NCBI GenBank assembly: GCA_018241725.1 | Contig: JAFEDI010000024.1 | Coordinates: 1 to 53,358, forward strand | Reading direction: 5' to 3' | Source of the DNA: Pseudomonadota bacterium | GTDB lineage: Bacteria; Pseudomonadota; Gammaproteobacteria; Burkholderiales; Rhodocyclaceae | DNA: 53,358 nt | Shown: positions 7,009 to 51,709 of the stretch, in pieces | Layout of the letters: each line of letters starts with the position of its first letter | How positions within the stretch are numbered: position 1 is the stretch's first letter | The notes under the pieces: model-generated | The model's input: only the letters and a program-made list of their open reading frames with translations | Database searches by the model: none | Told to the model about the DNA's origin: nothing | Translations under genes and position numbers: made by a program

Positions 7009-8715
7009 TCAGCGTACCAGCAGCAGGTAGACCAGCAAGACGTTGAGCACCAGCGACGTGGCCGCCAGCAGCTTGAGGCCGAGTTGCGGGTCCCGTTCCA
7101 TCAGCGGGGACTTGCGTGGCACCACCAGCGGGCGGCGGGCGCCCCGTTCGAGCGCCAGCAGGAATTCCTCGGCGGTCTCGAAGCGCGCCTTGGGTTCGCG
7201 GGCGACGGCCTTCAGCAGCACCGCTTCGAGCCAGTCGGGAATGTCCGGCCGATAGCGGGTCGGCGGCACCGGGTCGCCGAACTTGGGGTTCTGGAAGGGC
7301 TCGATCTCGCCGTAGGGATACTTGCGGGTCAGCAGCTGGTAGAGCGTCACGCCGACAGCGTAGAGGTCGGTCTGCTCGCTGGCGGCCACGTTCTTGCCAC
7401 CGTAGAGCTCAGGCGCCATGTAGCTGGGCGTGCCGGGATTGTTGATCTCCTCGAACTTCTGCCCCTGCTGGGTGGCGTCGGAAGCGGCAACGCCCAGGTC
7501 GAGGATGCGCAGACGGCCCTCGGCGTCCAGGTGCAGGTTGTCCGGCTTGATGTCCCGGTGCACGATGGACAGCCGGTGCAGGCTGGCCACGCCCTTCAGG
7601 ATGCGCTCGCCGAGGTCCGCCACCTCGCCGGTGCCGAAGCGGTGGCCGCTGTCCAGCCGTGCCTTGAGGGTAGCGCCCTCGTGCCAGCTCATCAGGTAGT
7701 ACAGATGGCTGCGCTGCGGGTAGGGGATGACCTGCGGGAACCAGCTGTCGTTGATCCGCCGGGCCAGCCATTCCTCGTGGGCGAGGGCGGCGGCGGCCTC
7801 CGGGTCGTCGTGTTCGGGGCGCAGGGTCTTCAGTACGCGGTGCTGGCCCTGGTCGTCGCTGACCCGGTACAGCAGCGTGGCGATGGATTCGTGCAGCAGG
7901 GCGTCGACGGTCAGGCCGTCCAGTGTCTGGCCGATCTTCAGGCGCGGCGGTAGCGGCAGGTTCTGCAGGCGGGCGATGTTGTCGCGCAGCTTGTCGGCCG
8001 GTAGTGCTTCCACGCGCAATACCAGTGCCGTGCAGTTGTCCTGGCTACCGCCGTCTTCGGCGCTCATCGCGAGACGCGCGGCAGCTTCCTGAGGGTCTTC
8101 TTCTGCGCGCAGGATGTCGCCGATCTTGCGGTCGCCGAGTTGGCCCCATACGCCGTCGCTCATCAGCGCGAAGACATCGTCGGCCTCCAGTTCGCCGTCG
8201 GCGTAATCCACCGACAGGTGGGCGTCGAGGCCGACCGCGCGGGACAGCACGTTCTTGAGTTCCGGGTGCTCCCACACGTGGTCGGTGGACAACTGCTCCA
8301 GCTTGCCGGCGCGCAGCCGGTAGATCCGCGAATCGCCCACGTGGGCCAGGTAATAGCGGCGCCCGCGCAGCACCACGGCCGACAGCGTGGTGGCCATGCC
8401 GGCCGCCTCCCGGGTACGTGCGGCGTGGGAGATCAGCCAGCGGTTGAGGGAGGTCAGCACCGTGTCGAGGGACTTGTTGACGGCCCAGGTATCCGGTGTT
8501 GCGTAGTAGTCGGAGAGCAGGCCGCGGACGGTGTATTCGGAAGCTTCGCGGCCGTTGGCGTGGCCGCCTACGCCGTCTGCAACCACTGCCAGGATGCCCT
8601 TGGCGTCAAGCTCGGCGCCTTCCGGCGTGACGGCGCCGCAGAAGTCCTCATTGCGCGGCCGCGGACCGGTGAGGGATGAATAACCGAGGATGGCGTGGAG
8701 TCGGGGCGCGGTCAT
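7009..8715 (-). CDS. Bifunctional PP2C-type phosphatase/serine-threonine protein kinase
   Basis: 568 residues from the ATG at 8715; a longer reading from a TTG at 8775 would begin inside a terminator hairpin. The N-terminal half is a PP2C phosphatase: RPRNEDFCG, VVADGVGGHANG, YLAHVGDSRIYRL, ALMSDGVWGQL and SQDNCTALVL supply the metal-binding aspartates. The second half is a Hanks-type kinase: VLKTL (ATP lysine), HRDIKPDN (catalytic loop), LDLGVA in place of DFG, then APELYGG. The glycine loop is degenerate. One transmembrane helix closes the protein (last 22 residues), leaving both domains cytoplasmic. It follows nirB-nirD-transporter, an order I recall from Pseudomonas aeruginosa PA1780-PA1783. 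It may regulate nitrate assimilation; targets unknown. Confidence 0.9.
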   Translation of the reverse strand: MTAPRLHAILGYSSLTGPRPRNEDFCGAVTPEGAELDAKGILAVVADGVGGHANGREASEYTVRGLLSDYYATPDTWAVNKSLDTVLTSLNRWLISHAARTREAAGMATTLSAVVLRGRRYYLAHVGDSRIYRLRAGKLEQLSTDHVWEHPELKNVLSRAVGLDAHLSVDYADGELEADDVFALMSDGVWGQLGDRKIGDILRAEEDPQEAAARLAMSAEDGGSQDNCTALVLRVEALPADKLRDNIARLQNLPLPPRLKIGQTLDGLTVDALLHESIATLLYRVSDDQGQHRVLKTLRPEHDDPEAAAALAHEEWLARRINDSWFPQVIPYPQRSHLYYLMSWHEGATLKARLDSGHRFGTGEVADLGERILKGVASLHRLSIVHRDIKPDNLHLDAEGRLRILDLGVAASDATQQGQKFEEINNPGTPSYMAPELYGGKNVAASEQTDLYAVGVTLYQLLTRKYPYGEIEPFQNPKFGDPVPPTRYRPDIPDWLEAVLLKAVAREPKARFETAEEFLLALERGARRPLVVPRKSPLMERDPQLGLKLLAATSLVLNVLLVYLLLVR

Positions 8716-8732
8716 GGGCGTCAGAAACGGCA

Positions 8733-8770
8733 CGGATCGGAAGCGGGGAGTATGCCCCGGTTCCGATCCG
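8733..8770 (-). terminator. Terminator or attenuator after the nitrate transporter gene
   Basis: The stem CGGATCGGAA-CGGGG / CCCCG-TTCCGATCCG has single mismatched bases and a 6-base loop. It lies between the transporter stop (8795) and the kinase start (8715). The T-run after it is short (TGCCGTTTCT), so partial read-through to the kinase is plausible. Confidence 0.7.
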
Positions 8771-8794
8771 TTCAAGAGTGTGTCGGGTGGTGGT

Positions 8795-10009
8795 TTAGAT
8801 CTTGGCCGTGGTCAGGTGCGGGGCGCCCCAGGTGGTGCGCCAGCGGCTCTTGACGGCGGTGAGGCCGCCCAGTGCGACGAGGGCCAATGCTGCGAAGATC
8901 AGGAAACCCGTTTGGTAGCTGCCGGTGACTTCCTTGCTGTAGCCGAGGCTGGAGGCGAGGTAGAAGCCACCGACACCGCCGGCCATGCCAACCAGGCCGG
9001 TCATCACGCCGATTTCCTTGCGGAAACGCTGGGGCACCAGCTGGAACACCGCGCCGTTGCCCATGCCAAGGGCCAACATTGCACAGACGAAGGCCGCCAG
9101 GGCCATCCAGGCGGACGGCAGCCCGAGGCCGACGATGGCCAGGAAGATGGCGGACAGTGCATACATGATGGTGAGCATCTTGATGCCGCCGATACGGTCG
9201 GCCACGTTGCCACCGATGGGGCGCACCATGCTGCCGGCAAACACGCAGGCGGCGGTGAAGAAGCCCGCCGTCTTGGCGTCGAGCCCGTACTGGGTGTTGA
9301 AGTAGATGGTCAGCGACGAGGCCAGGCCGACAAAGCCGCCGAAGGTCACCGAGTAGAAGAACATGAACCACCAGGCGTCCTTGTCCTTGAGCACCTTCAG
9401 GTATTCGGAGAGGGACTTGGCCGGCGGGCATTCGGGGGCGTCCTTCGCCAGCACCAAATAGAGCACGAAGACGATGGACAGCGGGATCAGCGCCAGGCCG
9501 AACACATTGGTCCAGCCGTAGGCGGCGGCCAGGCCGGGCCCGAACAGGGCGGCCATGGCGGTGCCCGAGTTGCCGGCGCCGGCAATGCCCAGTGCAGTGC
9601 CCTGATGCTCCGGCGGATACCAGCGGGAGGCCAGCGGCAGCGCGACGGCGAAGGAGGCTCCGGCGACGCCGAGGAAGAGACCCAGCACCAGGGTCTCTTC
9701 ATAGCTGTGGATGCCGAAGTGCCAGGCGAAGGCCAGCGCGCAGAGCACGACGACCTGGCCAATGGCGCCAGCCATCTTTGGCTTCAGGTGATCCACCAGC
9801 ACGCCCATCACCAGGCGCAGCAGGGCGCCGGCGAGAACCGGCGTGGCAACCATCAGGCCTTTCTGGGCGTGGGTCAGGCCCAGGTCTTTGGCGATCTGCA
9901 CGCCCAGCGGGCCGAGCAGCACCCACACCATGAAGGCGAGATCGAAGTAAAGGAAAGCGGCCAGCAGGGTGGGGGTGTGGCCGGCTTTCAGGAAGGATTT
10001 GCGGTCCAT
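8795..10009 (-). CDS. nasA: Nitrate/nitrite MFS transporter (NarK/NasA type)
   Basis: A 404-residue inner-membrane major facilitator protein with about twelve hydrophobic segments. The NNP (nitrate/nitrite porter) signatures are visible: GIAGAGNSGTAMAALFGPG in the first half and LGMGNGAVFQLVPQRFRKEI in the second, plus the arginine in the LLRLVMG segment expected to bind anion. It lies downstream of nirB and nirD in the same direction, with the PP2C-kinase after it. This fits import of nitrate or nitrite for assimilation. No nitrate reductase gene is in the window, so one must lie elsewhere. A 153-bp gap with a long hairpin separates it from nirD, so it may be expressed at a different level. 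Confidence 0.92.
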   Translation of the reverse strand: MDRKSFLKAGHTPTLLAAFLYFDLAFMVWVLLGPLGVQIAKDLGLTHAQKGLMVATPVLAGALLRLVMGVLVDHLKPKMAGAIGQVVVLCALAFAWHFGIHSYEETLVLGLFLGVAGASFAVALPLASRWYPPEHQGTALGIAGAGNSGTAMAALFGPGLAAAYGWTNVFGLALIPLSIVFVLYLVLAKDAPECPPAKSLSEYLKVLKDKDAWWFMFFYSVTFGGFVGLASSLTIYFNTQYGLDAKTAGFFTAACVFAGSMVRPIGGNVADRIGGIKMLTIMYALSAIFLAIVGLGLPSAWMALAAFVCAMLALGMGNGAVFQLVPQRFRKEIGVMTGLVGMAGGVGGFYLASSLGYSKEVTGSYQTGFLIFAALALVALGGLTAVKSRWRTTWGAPHLTTAKI

Positions 10010-10162: not shown

Positions 10163-10474
10163 TTACAGGGAGAGGAAGACCTCGCCGTTTTCGACCTTGA
10201 CCGGGAAGGGCTTCACGCAGCCCACGTCCGGTGGTACGACCTGGCCGTCGTCGAGCTGGATCTTCCAGCTGTGCAAGGGGCAGGTAACCGTGGTGCCGTG
10301 CACCAATCCCTGGGACAGGGGGCCGCCCTTGTGGGGGCAGCGGTCGCGTACCGCGAAGACCTGGTCGGCCGAGTTGCGGAACAGTGCGATGCGGCCTTCG
10401 TCCTCGCTATGCACCACGCGGGAGCCCAGTACCGGTACGTCGCTGATGGCGCAGATTCGTTTCCATTCGCTCAT
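10163..10474 (-). CDS. nirD: Assimilatory nitrite reductase small subunit NirD
   Basis: 103 residues, the usual size. NirD is a Rieske-like cytoplasmic subunit that pairs with NirB for NADH-dependent reduction of nitrite to ammonium. The fold is recognisable from RDRCPHKGGPLSQGLV and TCPLHSWKIQLDDG. Here the two Cys-X-His pairs of a Rieske [2Fe-2S] site are partly kept (CPH, CPLH), unlike Escherichia coli NirD where the ligands are lost, so cluster binding is possible. The start codon lies 11 bp after the nirB stop, indicating one transcript. Confidence 0.93.
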   Translation of the reverse strand: MSEWKRICAISDVPVLGSRVVHSEDEGRIALFRNSADQVFAVRDRCPHKGGPLSQGLVHGTTVTCPLHSWKIQLDDGQVVPPDVGCVKPFPVKVENGEVFLSL

Positions 10475-10485
10475 TTGCGGGCTCC

Positions 10486-12948
10486 TCAAACCTTGATGAT
10501 CTCGAATTGACGTCGATGGATGCCGCCGCTCTTGTCTTCGAAGATCTCGGCCCACGGGTCTTTGTAGTTCTGCAATGCGAAGAGGAGTTTTTCGTAGAGC
10601 GCCTTGCGGTTGGCCTCGTCTTCGAGGACCCGTTTCTTGATGTGCTCCATGCCGACCCGCTCCAGGTAATGGCAGGTGCGTTCCAGGTAGAAGCCTTCTT
10701 CCCGGTAGAGCTGGATGAAGGCGCCGCCGTATTCCATGACCTCGGCGTCGTCCTTCACTTTGCAGAAGAACTGCGCCACTTCGGTCTTGATGCCTCCATT
10801 GCCGCCAATGTAGAGCTCGTAGCCGGAATCGACGCCGATCACGCCCACGTCCTTGATGCCCGACTCGGCGCAGTTGCGCGGGCAACCGGACACCGCCAGC
10901 TTGACCTTGTGGGGGCTCCACATGCCGAACAGCATCTTCTCCAGCTTGACTCCGAGGTCCATCGAGCGCTGGGTGCCGAAGCGGCAGTGCTCGGCACCGA
11001 CGCAGGTCTTCACGGTGCGCAGGCTCTTGCCGTAGGCGTGGCCGGAGCACATGCCGGCCTTGGCGAAGTCCTCCCACATGGCGGGCAGGTCTTCCTTCTT
11101 CACGCCGAGCAGGTCGATGCGCTGGCCACCGGTCACCTTGACGGTCGGCACCTTGTACTTCTCGGCGGCGTCGGCAATGGCGCGCAGCTCGTCGGGGGTG
11201 GTCAGGCCGCCCCACATGCGCGGCACCACCGAGTAGGTGCCGTCCTTCTGGATGTTGGCGTGGGCCCGCTCGTTGATGAAGCGGCTCTGCGGGTCGTCGA
11301 TGGCCTCGTGGGGCCAGGTGGACAGGCAGTAGTAGTTGAGGGCCGGGCGGCAGGTCGCGCAGCCGTTGGGCGTCTTCCAGGCCAGGAATTTCTGCGTGTC
11401 GGCTACCGACAGCAGCTTGTTGTCCCGGATGGCCTTGCGCACTTCGCCGTGGGAATGGTCGGTACAGCCGCATACCGCCTTGTTGTTGGAGTCGGCCGGC
11501 TGGTAGGCGCCGCCGATCGTCGAGGCCAGGATCTGCTCGACCAGCCCGGTACAGGAGCCGCAGGAGCTGGACGCCTTGGTGTGCTTGCGCACGTCTTCCA
11601 GCGTGAAGAGGCCTTGCTCCTTGATGGCCTTGACGATGGTGCCCTTGCACACGCCGTTGCAGCCGCACACCTCGGCGGTGTCGGGCATGCTGGCGGCCAG
11701 GCTGTTGCCTTTGTGGCCGACGTCGCCCAGGTGGGAATTGCCGAACACCAGGTTGTCGCGGATGTCGTGGATGTCCTGCTCGTCCTTCAGCAGCTGGAAG
11801 TACCAGGCCCCGTCCTTGGTGTCGCCGTACAGCACGGCGCCGACCAGCTTGTCGTCCTTCAGCACCAGGCGCTTGTAGATGCCCATGCCCGGGTCATGCA
11901 GCACGATGTCCTCGGTGCCTTCGGCGCCCGAGAAGTCGCCGGCGGAGAACACGTCGATGCCGGTGACCTTGAGCTTGGTGCTGGTCACCGAGCCCTGGTA
12001 GCGGCCGATGCCGTACATGGCGAGGTGATTGGCGGCAACCTTGGCCTGCTCGAACAGCGGTGCCACCAGACCGTAGGCGGTGCCCCGGTGGTTGGCGCAT
12101 TCGCCGACGGCGTAGATGCGCGGGTCGTAGGTCTGCAGCGTGTCATTGACGACGATGCCGCGGTTGCAGTGGATGCCGGCTTTCTCGGCCAGCTCGACGT
12201 TGGGGCGGATGCCGGCTGCGATGCAGACGAGGTCGGCGGGGAGGCTGCTGCCGTCCTTGAACTTGATCGCGCAGACGCGGCCGGATTCGCCCTGTACCAG
12301 CTCGGCGGTCTGGGCGTTGAGCTTGAACTTCATGCCCTTGGCTTCGAGGGCGGCCTGCAGCATCTTGCCAGCGGTGCGGTCGAGCTGGCGCTCCATGATC
12401 CAGTCTGAGAGATGTACCACGGTCACGTCCATGCCACGCAGGGCCAGACCGTTGGCGGCCTCCAGGCCCAGCAGGCCGGCGCCGACGACCACCGCGTGCT
12501 GGTACTTGGCCGCCGCGTCGATCATCTCGTCGGTGTCCTTGATGTCCCGGTAGGAGATCACGCCGGGCAGGTCCTTGCCCGGAATCGGCGGCATGAAGGG
12601 GGTGGAGCCGGTGGCGAGCAGCAGGCGGTCGTAATCGACGGTGATCGGCTGGCCGTCCTTGCCGGTGGCGACGATGGAGCGGTTGCGGCGGTCGATCTCG
12701 GTGACGCGGGCCCCGAGGTGCAGGGTGATGTCGTTATCCGCGTACCACTGGAGGTCGTTGAGGATGATGTCCTGGATGGTCATCTCTCCGGCCAGCACCG
12801 GGGAGAGCAGGATACGGTTGTAGTTGGGATGGGGTTCGGCACCGAAGACCGTGATGTCGTACATGTCCGGGGCGATTTTCCGCAGCTCTTCCAGCGTGCG
12901 GACGCCTGCCATCCCATTGCCGACCATGACCAGTTTCTGTTTGCGCAT
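10486..12948 (-). CDS. nirB: Assimilatory nitrite reductase large subunit NirB
   Basis: 820 residues from ATG 12948; upstream in-frame codons lie in the leader. NirB transfers electrons from NADH through FAD and Fe-S centres to sirohaem and reduces nitrite to ammonium in the cytoplasm. In order: FAD/NAD-binding domains (VMVGNGMAGVRTLEEL; VVVGAGLLGLEAANGL), two BFD-like [2Fe-2S] regions (CGCNGVCKGT with CGSCTGL; CGCTDHSHGE with CATCRPALN), a ferredoxin-like half domain, and the sirohaem/[4Fe-4S] cysteines TCVGAEHCRFGT (about 635) and SGCPRNCAESG (about 675). Transcription should start near 13159 from a sigma-54 promoter, leaving a structured leader of about 210 bases that suggests nitrate-responsive antitermination. 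Confidence 0.96.
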   Translation of the reverse strand: MRKQKLVMVGNGMAGVRTLEELRKIAPDMYDITVFGAEPHPNYNRILLSPVLAGEMTIQDIILNDLQWYADNDITLHLGARVTEIDRRNRSIVATGKDGQPITVDYDRLLLATGSTPFMPPIPGKDLPGVISYRDIKDTDEMIDAAAKYQHAVVVGAGLLGLEAANGLALRGMDVTVVHLSDWIMERQLDRTAGKMLQAALEAKGMKFKLNAQTAELVQGESGRVCAIKFKDGSSLPADLVCIAAGIRPNVELAEKAGIHCNRGIVVNDTLQTYDPRIYAVGECANHRGTAYGLVAPLFEQAKVAANHLAMYGIGRYQGSVTSTKLKVTGIDVFSAGDFSGAEGTEDIVLHDPGMGIYKRLVLKDDKLVGAVLYGDTKDGAWYFQLLKDEQDIHDIRDNLVFGNSHLGDVGHKGNSLAASMPDTAEVCGCNGVCKGTIVKAIKEQGLFTLEDVRKHTKASSSCGSCTGLVEQILASTIGGAYQPADSNNKAVCGCTDHSHGEVRKAIRDNKLLSVADTQKFLAWKTPNGCATCRPALNYYCLSTWPHEAIDDPQSRFINERAHANIQKDGTYSVVPRMWGGLTTPDELRAIADAAEKYKVPTVKVTGGQRIDLLGVKKEDLPAMWEDFAKAGMCSGHAYGKSLRTVKTCVGAEHCRFGTQRSMDLGVKLEKMLFGMWSPHKVKLAVSGCPRNCAESGIKDVGVIGVDSGYELYIGGNGGIKTEVAQFFCKVKDDAEVMEYGGAFIQLYREEGFYLERTCHYLERVGMEHIKKRVLEDEANRKALYEKLLFALQNYKDPWAEIFEDKSGGIHRRQFEIIKV

Positions 12949-13024
12949 GATTCCTCCGACATTGATTCTCCCCGGACCGGACGCACAGGACCGATGCGGG
13001 CGGGTAAGCCTTGAGCAGGAGAGA

Positions 13025-13140
13025 GATCGTCGTTGATCGCGGCGGGGCCGTCGTTGGCCGGACCGCGTCGCCAGCCTCGGAGGGCGGCGCGCAAGCACCT
13101 GGATTCAGGTAGTGCGCAGTGCGGCAACGTCTTTATTGCC
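13025..13140 (-). promoter_or_regulatory. Structured nirB leader with ANTAR-type hexaloop hairpins
   Basis: Read on the minus strand, the first hairpin (13140-13123) is GGCAAU-[AAAGAC]-GUUGCC, six pairs closing a hexaloop. A middle hairpin (13117-13089) is UGCGC...ACCUG-AAUC-CAGGU...GCGCA on the minus strand. The next (13067-13038) is CGCGG-UCC-GGCC-[AACGAC]-GGCC-CCG-CCGCG. A third hexaloop, GAUC-[AACGAC]-GAUC, overlaps its end (13038-13025). All three loops have A at position 1 and G at position 4, the known signature of RNA bound by ANTAR proteins such as NasR and NasT. The location in a nitrite reductase leader fits. No good terminator T-run is visible, so the exact mechanism is open. Confidence 0.6.
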
Positions 13141-13168
13141 TCATGCGCACATTTGTCGGATGGCTATT

Positions 13169-13184
13169 AGCAATGGCCGTGCCA
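13169..13184 (-). promoter_or_regulatory. Sigma-54 promoter of nirBD
   Basis: The minus strand reads TGGCACGGCCATTGCT, matching the -24/-12 consensus TGGCACG-N4-TTGC(A/T) exactly. The start point is predicted near 13159. Sigma-54 dependence implies an NtrC-like activator responding to nitrogen limitation; its site was not located. Confidence 0.85.
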
Positions 13185-13290
13185 CCGCGCCCAGATCAGG
13201 TAAATACTGGGGAGAAACGGGGGCGGGACGTGCGGGAGGGGCGCGATGCGCACTTGGCTGGTGCGCATCGCCCTGCGCTGGGGCGCAGGA

Positions 13291-13791
13291 TCAGGCGATC
13301 GACTTGCGGTGCTGCAGTAGATGTACAGCGAGGCTGAGCAGGATGGTGGTGAAGGCCAGGAAGGACCAGTTGGCGATGGACAGGCCGAGGAAGGTCCAGT
13401 CCACGACCGAACAGTCGCCGGCGCCGCGGAAGATCATCGGCAGCGCGGAGGACAGCGGGAAGCTCTCCAGCATGTATTCCAGGCCAGGGCCGCATTCGGA
13501 GACCGTCGGCGGATACCACTGGATCCACGATTGGCGCGCCGCCACGCCAGCACCAGCCAGGGCTGCGACGGCGAGCAGAGCCGACCAAATATAGCGCCCT
13601 CTGGTGGCCGGGTTGTGCAGACCGGCACCCAGGCCAATCAGGCCGCAGGCCAGCAGCGCATAACGCTGCATGATGCACATCGGGCAGGGTTCGATGCCCT
13701 TTACGTGCTGGAGGTAAAGGCCGATGGCGAGCAGGCTGCTGCAGACGACAAAGAGGGCGAGGGCGAGGGGGCGGGTTTGGTGGGTGGGCAT
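13291..13791 (-). CDS. dsbB: Disulfide bond formation protein DsbB
   Basis: DsbB is the inner-membrane quinone reductase that reoxidises periplasmic DsbA. The 166-residue protein has four hydrophobic segments. The first periplasmic loop carries the CPMC pair (residues 36 and 39) and the second loop carries Cys100 and Cys127, the two disulfides needed for activity. ATG 13791 (MPTHQTR) is preferred to an upstream TTG at 13800. It is the last of a leftward run after argB, from which a hairpin at 13802-13856 separates it. dsbA is not in the window. Confidence 0.93.
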   Translation of the reverse strand: MPTHQTRPLALALFVVCSSLLAIGLYLQHVKGIEPCPMCIMQRYALLACGLIGLGAGLHNPATRGRYIWSALLAVAALAGAGVAARQSWIQWYPPTVSECGPGLEYMLESFPLSSALPMIFRGAGDCSVVDWTFLGLSIANWSFLAFTTILLSLAVHLLQHRKSIA

Positions 13792-51693: not shown

Positions 51694-51709
51694 TGGCACA
51701 TCACTTGCA
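51694..51709 (+). promoter_or_regulatory. Sigma-54 promoter of the PEP-CTERM gene
   Basis: TGGCACATCACTTGCA matches TGGCAC-N5-TTGCA exactly; transcription should start near 51720. About 80 bp upstream lie dyads TGTGT-N11-ACACA (around 51610-51630) and TTGGG-N7-CCCAG that may bind an enhancer protein. In PEP-CTERM bacteria the PrsK/PrsR two-component system with RpoN controls such genes. Confidence 0.85.

Follow-up and report, generated by a model that had tools for sequence, protein, structure and literature searches.

The window, that is, the whole stretch of 53,358 nucleotides that was analysed, comes from a Zoogloea-like bacterium and carries four genes of interest on one strand (minus), in the order nirB (nitrite reductase large subunit, 10486..12948, TIGR02374), nirD (10163..10492, TIGR02378), a gene for a NarK-type nitrate/nitrite MFS transporter (8795..10009; TIGR00886, 291.8 bits, just under the cut-off of 311.7) and a gene for a PP2C phosphatase fused to a Ser/Thr kinase domain (7009..8775). 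The last two perhaps belong to the same operon as nirB. The ATG of nirB, at 12948, is preceded by a leader of about 210 nt on the minus strand, with the Shine-Dalgarno (SD) sequence GGAGG at 12953..12957. A preliminary description of this DNA had announced a perfect sigma-54 site, and a -24/-12 promoter (TGGCAC-N5-TTGCT, TGGCACGGCCATTGCT) was indeed found with no mismatch at 13184-13169 on the minus strand. By the usual sigma-54 spacing, we take the +1 of nirB to be near 13158. Two perfect sites were observed in the window against 0.11 expected; the second sigma-54-like site, TGGCACATCACTTGCA, lies at 51694-51709 on the plus strand. A similar site is located 229-240 nt ahead of the ATG in 16 leaders of the Zoogloea clade. 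Upstream of the promoter, a dyad on the minus strand (GATGCGCAC-N7-GTGCGCATC, 13245..13269) forms a nine-base inverted repeat with the core GCAC-N7-GTGC. It presumably fits the NtrC consensus and is a candidate NtrC site.

Three hairpins with loops of the form A-x-x-G-x-x had been proposed for this leader, and all three were recovered on the minus strand: H1 (GGCAAT-AAAGAC-GTTGCC, 13140-13123, its loop closed by a U-G wobble), H3 (GGCC-AACGAC-GGCC, 13059-13046) and H4 (GATC-AACGAC-GATC, 13038-13025). The loop of H3 occupies 13055-13050 and an outer stem, CGCGG/CCGCG (13067-13063 with 13042-13038), extends the whole hairpin to 13038..13067; one base is common to the end of this outer stem and the start of H4. 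The cores of H3 and H4, the first and second hairpins of the ANTAR pair, are 7 nt apart, each with a six-base loop carrying A1 and G4. A further hairpin between H1 and H3 (ACCUG-AAUC-CAGGU) has no A1/G4 hexaloop. When the leader was folded up to the ATG with RNAfold, H1, H3 and H4 all formed (z -3.2; 0/200 shuffles folded equally well). Hairpins with a hexaloop, A1, G4 and at least four pairs numbered 3 in the leader (212 nt) and 0.21 on average in shuffles; among 5000 dinucleotide shuffles, at least two were present in 1.7% and at least three in 0.12%. A chance origin of the three hairpins is thus unlikely. A terminator scan of 12900-13320 gave no terminator-like site, in line with the missing U-tract of the preliminary description, and the leader has no intrinsic terminator mutually exclusive with the second hairpin, the arrangement of ANTAR antiterminator leaders. 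The narK RNA family RF03032 matched the nirB leader with 20.1 bits (gathering score 43.2) at 13183-13124, where its sigma-54-like start and its AAAGACGU end are found. This match covers the promoter and part of H1, unlike the conserved H3/H4 pair, which lies outside it.

The genome to which the window belongs (5.93 Mb, completeness given as 100) encodes exactly one ANTAR protein (72 bits, above the cut-off), in answer to the check for such a protein suggested at the outset. This protein has 191 residues, with an N-terminal receiver-like domain (slightly under cut-off) followed by an ANTAR domain (over cut-off), and its gene directly precedes nrtA. Judged from this domain layout and this neighbour, it is NasT-like. 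The nrtA leader contains a sigma-54 site, two hexaloops (AACGGC, AAAGGC) and a long hairpin after which come UC and a run of eight U; its RF03032 score, 35.7 bits, is also under the gathering score of 43.2. Since this fold and U-tract fit an antiterminator, classical NasT regulation seems to be present in the same genome. NasS was not identified there among the paralogues inspected: the nearest NrtA paralogue is 27% identical and has a Tat-like start. The genome has six further PF13379 matches. At L010 (8656-9231), nasT adjoins nrtABC and nasS is not evident. ANTAR proteins were present in 44 of the 49 genomes tested, so that their co-occurrence with the leader discriminates little; in two MAGs (L019, L030) the leader is present and the ANTAR protein search gave none.

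Leaders of nirB were gathered by protein similarity, not by RNA, from 80 loci of named genomes, 144 loci of other genomes of the family (many of the same species) and 30 of genus g62. Seven of the 80 loci (L050, L081, L082, L084, L089, L091, L092) were dropped, either because the match did not start at residue 1 or because the upstream DNA was too short. Merging of leaders more than 97% identical over 220 nt reduced 218 leaders to 163 non-redundant ones. An automatic rule detected a dual hexaloop in 43 of these 163 and none in the other 120, some of which carry a sigma-54 site roughly 55 nt ahead of the ATG. The 43 comprise 7 leaders of terminator type, 29 leaders in which H4 can pair with the SD region (the SD set) and 7 unclassified ones (L038, L147, L156, L165, L186, L194, L201). 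Addition of 5 leaders by hand (L021, L029, L031, L034, L036) and of 18 from genus g62 brought the SD set to 52. With g62 the leader set amounts to 184; three of the 30 g62 loci (L254, L259, L267) were not extracted, because no start pattern was found. Three alignments were used: 25 of 27 Dechloromonas-like leaders (alignment A1; L247 and L250 omitted as near repeats), 13 of 16 Zoogloea-clade leaders (alignment A5; an insertion led to the omission of the window, L013 and L014) and 32 of the 42 H3/H4 cores found among the 52 leaders (alignment A7; 10 near repeats omitted).

H3 and H4 were present in 16/16 non-redundant Zoogloea-clade leaders, with A1 and G4 throughout and a single mismatched pair in the H3 of L021. 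In genus g62, the hexaloop pair was found in 26 of the 27 extracted leaders, three of which are near copies of named Dechloromonas leaders; the exception, L263, lacks the SD-side stretch as well. G1 replaces A1 in the H4 loops of L029, L031 and L034 and in the H3 loop of L036. Over the 32 core sequences all 256 cells were paired and 52 cells showed double changes, against 15.9 in shuffles; the rows had been chosen for having stems, so that full pairing is built in, while the double changes are not. The covariation score was 0.664 versus 0.221 in shuffles, and 6 of the 8 pairs change on both sides. Within groups, double changes also occur in H3, while H4 shows one-sided changes only. H3/H4 is thus a conserved ANTAR pair with strong covariation.

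The third hexaloop behaved differently. The A1 and G4 letters of H1 are present in 13/16 Zoogloea-clade leaders, but in only 4/16 does a standard pair close its loop (alignment, by eye), and H1 was seen only in this clade, the Dechloromonas-like leaders being too short for it. We therefore rejected H1 as a conserved ANTAR site: the conservation of hexaloops and stems expected in related leaders holds for H3/H4, with compensatory changes, and fails for H1, well formed in 4/16. Nor is the presence of three loops unusual in itself, as had been thought, since two nrtA-like leaders also have three (by eye). These two, L317 and L319, come from outside the family and combine three A1/G4 hexaloops with a T-tract terminator (by eye). 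The unusual feature of the nirB leader is the absent terminator, which the preliminary description mentioned but left unexplained, not the number of loops.

A model, R1, was built from the 32-row core, the window being among its rows. In the window's own genome it found the nirB leader with 47.2 bits (E 8e-7), and the next match, with 24.3 bits (E 0.1), lies inside an ORF. Across 297 genomes of the family, R1 gave matches at E up to 0.01 in 53, the weakest being candidates only. Of the RF03032 and R1 matches outside nirB and nrtA, three were inspected as other targets in the genome and rejected: L004 and L271 are inside ORFs, and L003 has a sigma-54-like site upstream of a gene with no recognised link to nitrogen.

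The dual-hexaloop nirB leaders fall into two kinds, those with a T-rich tract after the hexaloops and those with pairing to the stretch before the ATG. In the seven terminator-type leaders, of which the named ones belong to Aromatoleum toluvorans (L056) and a Thauera (L066), a T-rich tract comes after the second hairpin, at a distance of about 30 nt from the ATG, or about 100 nt in the case of L056. At least six T in the eight bases after H4 were counted in 7/7 terminator-type leaders and in 2 of the 52 SD-set leaders (L023, L110), and exactly five T in 15 further SD-set leaders; none of the 16 Zoogloea-clade leaders had five or more. L023 and L110, with their T-rich tract before the ATG, may be of the terminator type. 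An order-wide search gave a match in 16 of 399 genomes, and ten loci were read. L313-L319 and L321 (the last from the family itself) lie ahead of an nrtA-like or NarK-type gene, as judged by reading, and a T-tract follows a hairpin in all eight (by eye); L320 and L322 look like coding sequence. Judging from these eight T-tracts, the terminator seems to be the usual platform and the SD platform a variant found in some Rhodocyclaceae.

In the SD set, a helix can form between the sequence preceding the ATG and the H4 loop, its 3' arm and a few bases beyond. Duplexes were computed for 34 of the 52 leaders, the other 18 being the same Dechloromonas-like sequences. The Zoogloea-clade duplex pairs CGACGAUCUCUCC with GGGGAG..AUCGUCG or a variant of that partner, and the Dechloromonas-like duplex pairs GGC-CGACGU-UGCGC with GCGCG-ACGUUG-GCC around UUGGAG. 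In six leaders (L023, L110, L025, L026, L029, L034) it is the SD AGGGA itself that pairs with the UCCC of the H4 3' arm. In L024, L031 and L036 the best duplexes end further upstream than the SD. Since these helices use bases of H4, the fold with H4 and the fold with the SD helix are mutually exclusive. In the 25 aligned Dechloromonas-like leaders 96.4% of the cells of the SD helix pair, against at most 52.9% in slid versions; 9 of its 14 main pairs are invariant and none changes on both sides. In the 13 aligned Zoogloea-clade leaders 95.8% of the cells pair (slid versions, at most 59.3%), and shuffles do equally well on all five measures. Within the groups, the SD helix is conserved complementarity, with no covariation. 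We also exchanged H4 and SD regions between groups and obtained a mean of -19.9 kcal/mol for matched regions and -15.0 kcal/mol for different groups; this comparison was given no weight because several mismatched group pairs bind as strongly. When the H4 flank was tested against the SD region with shuffles, 13 of the 16 Zoogloea-clade leaders gave z values between -1.5 and -3.95, and the remaining three (the window and its two nearest relatives, L013 and L014) values between -0.2 and -0.4; in 16 other leaders (without L032 and L035) z was -1.5 or weaker, down to none.

We then computed for the 52 leaders the cost of opening the ribosome site (-15 to -6), unconstrained or with H4 enforced, and compared the gain with that of a null of 60 randomised H4 hairpins of the same composition. 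The 25 Dechloromonas-like leaders had a mean gain of 5.7 kcal/mol against 0.5 for the null; 24 of them were above the null mean, and for 23 of the 25 the null reached their value in at most 5 of 60 cases. The 16 Zoogloea-clade leaders had a mean gain of 3.8 against 1.2 kcal/mol; 14 were above the null mean, one of these, in the window's clade, by rounding only, and for 11 of the 16 the null reached the value in at most 4 of 60 cases. Outside these groups, L035 gained 6.3 (null 0.6). The gain was weak or absent in three Uliginosibacterium-like leaders (1.6, null 0.8), in six Azoarcus-like leaders (0.6, null 0.1) and in L032 (-0.8, null -0.6). Inclusion of 45 nt before H4 gave 5.0 against 0.2 in Dechloromonas-like and 2.6 against 0.5 in Zoogloea-clade leaders (20 nulls), and whole transcripts, where the start could be placed, gave 5.2 against 0.3 and 3.1 against 0.5 (20 nulls). 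The choice of segment alters single leaders: L016 gained 3.7 on one segment and 0.7 (7.1 to 6.4) on another. The same form precedes a separate gene, the NarK-type gene of Uliginosibacterium aquaticum (L310), with a gain of 6.1 against 0.6 that none of 60 nulls reached. The NarK-type leaders L307, L308 and L309, from Dechloromonas-like genomes, showed no clear terminator and no H4-SD switch. At about 300-510 nt on the gene's strand they have a sigma-54-like site together with a dual hexaloop that hardly differs from the one of nirB; enforcing H3 cuts the opening cost of the ribosome site in L307 and L308 (2.8 to 0.8) and not in L309.

In the window itself, the segment CGACGAUCUCUCUCC (13018..13032, minus strand), made of the H4 loop, its 3' arm and flank, can pair with the SD region as an alternative to H4. 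The SD-side partner, GGGGAGA-AUC-aau..GUCG (12957..12973, minus strand), ends on the first G of the SD. When 18 or 43 nt from the ATG on were included, RNAfold replaced H4 with an SD-region helix of 14 pairs, CGAC pairing with GUCG, GAU with AUC and UCUCUCC with GGGGAGA; the SD bases GAGG are outside it. In the window and its two nearest relatives, enforcing H4 lowered the opening cost by 1.9-2.1, just as the null did (1.9-2.1; for the window alone 1.9 in both), which equalled the gain in 28-33 of 60 cases, and on longer segments of the window H4 gave no gain (7.8 to 7.7, 4.8 to 4.9, 8.0 to 7.9). In the clade of the window, 2 nt are inserted beside H4 and 1 nt is missing before the SD, which shifts the register of the H4/SD pairing. 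Since its opening cost does not go beyond the null, the switch function of the window is drawn mainly from its relatives. Elsewhere in the leader, CCUCCGA (13083-13077) is fully complementary to UCGGAGG at the SD (12953-12959), a match that may be due to chance because the two nearest relatives carry mismatches. The distance from the end of H4 to the ATG is 76 nt in the window and about 51 nt in Dechloromonas-like leaders, so that the ribosome binding site is not covered by H4.

From these data we lean, at slightly better than even chances, towards the view that the nirB leader is a NasT-responsive ANTAR leader whose output is the translation of nirB. Under nitrogen control, sigma-54 RNA polymerase would start near 13158, and H3 and H4 would fold first. 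Without free NasT, the weak four-pair H4 would yield, and its loop and 3' arm would pair up to the SD, keeping ribosomes away. Nitrate or nitrite would free NasT, which would then hold the H3-H4 pair; H4 thus held would no longer be available to the SD region, and translation of nirB, and perhaps of nirD and narK, would follow. The binding of NasT to H3-H4, the order of folding and the effect on translation are inferred here. Such a switch is unproven; computation supports it well in the Dechloromonas-like and most Zoogloea-clade relatives and weakly in the window copy. The ANTAR-type leader of the preliminary description thus stands as regards the sigma-54 promoter, the hexaloops, the ANTAR protein and the conserved H3/H4, while an antitermination like that of NasR is doubtful at nirB, the leader having no terminator-like site.

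Antitermination by NasT at a Rho-dependent or otherwise non-canonical site, with no intrinsic terminator, is an unlikely explanation. If translation were blocked, the mRNA would become accessible to Rho for that reason alone. Terminators are present at nrtA of the same genome and at the seven Thauera/Aromatoleum-type nirB leaders, and the NasT/NasR leaders met in the literature consulted, among them Pseudomonas nirBD (in a review), Paracoccus nasA and Bradyrhizobium nosR, are described as acting on termination. Against this, the window leader contains no terminator-like site, a T-tract after H4 occurs in 0/16 Zoogloea-clade leaders (five or more T in eight bases) against 7/7 terminator-type leaders (six or more), and the conserved partner of H4 extends as far as the SD, a feature that termination would not need. 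For the Dechloromonas-like and most Zoogloea-clade relatives, release of the ribosome site is a better fit than antitermination.

It is also conceivable, if improbable, that the hexaloops bind NasT and that the H4/SD complementarity is a mere by-product of a purine-rich SD and pyrimidine-rich arms, NasT either acting on mRNA stability or having no action in this clade. The window leader is within its null and the SD helix does not covary inside groups, as expected from a by-product; however, the mean of a null that keeps composition was exceeded by 24/25 Dechloromonas-like and 14/16 Zoogloea-clade leaders, which argues against a by-product. As to the direction of control, nitrite assimilation is expected to be nitrate-induced. 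A repressing switch, in which NasT bound near the ribosome site would block translation, as reported for actinobacterial ANTAR RNAs lying over the ribosome binding site (PMC8164766), and as might be suspected from Bradyrhizobium narK-bjgb-flp, which has predicted NasT hairpins and reportedly rises in a nasT mutant (PMC6759348), is very improbable here, since H4 does not cover the ribosome binding site and enforcing H4 exposes the ribosome binding site in the Dechloromonas-like and most Zoogloea-clade leaders.

We come back to NasT-dependent release of the ribosome site, and to its precedents. ANTAR proteins are mostly described as transcription antiterminators. NmPAL, presumably, also carries an ANTAR domain. 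Translational ANTAR control has already been proposed, and an engineered, light-driven version exists. The two neighbouring six-base-loop hairpins of the window, with A1 and G4, resemble those of dual-hexaloop ANTAR target RNAs, for which an A1/G4 rule is reported (PMC8934654). The nirBD leader NalA of Pseudomonas is described in a review (PMC12830290) as having a sigma-54/NtrC promoter and as escaping transcription termination through NasT. It is thus like the window in gene, in promoter type and in the action of NasT on leader RNA that is proposed here; NalA is described as acting on termination, whereas the window leader has no terminator-like site and its alternative pairing ends at the SD. 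In Ramesh et al. 2012 (PMC3369931), it was suggested that ANTAR hits without terminators might act on translation, and one is shown that overlaps a ribosome binding site. The nirB form differs from that case in that it recurs across a clade and that H4, situated well upstream, is in competition with an SD-region helix; binding of NasT should therefore activate. In actinobacterial ANTAR RNAs, the ribosome binding site or start codon is inside the structure in about 37% and binding is reported to repress (PMC8164766); translational control would be common to both, but the nirB leader would be activated. The logic proposed here is also that of the riboptoregulator with NmPAL, in which protein binding to a hairpin motif reportedly relieves SD sequestration (PMC11381354), but which is engineered and light-driven. 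A literature search, in which few subscription papers were covered, revealed no natural SD release by NasT and no report of these Rhodocyclaceae leaders.

Whether one genome uses one NasT for two outputs, a terminator at nrtA and a ribosome-site switch at nirB, is in our opinion evenly balanced. The platform would then have been swapped during Rhodocyclaceae evolution, in a riboswitch-like manner, and the nirB leader would be a natural ANTAR translational activator. Natural leaders in which the same motif stands ahead of a terminator in some cases and of an SD-sequestering helix in others would demonstrate that the output of ANTAR regulation is exchangeable, and the SD platform would account for ANTAR hits without terminators. 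The nirB leader would also give a testable natural counterpart of engineered protein-driven riboregulators, and it bears on how nitrite assimilation is switched on in Zoogloea- and Dechloromonas-like bacteria.
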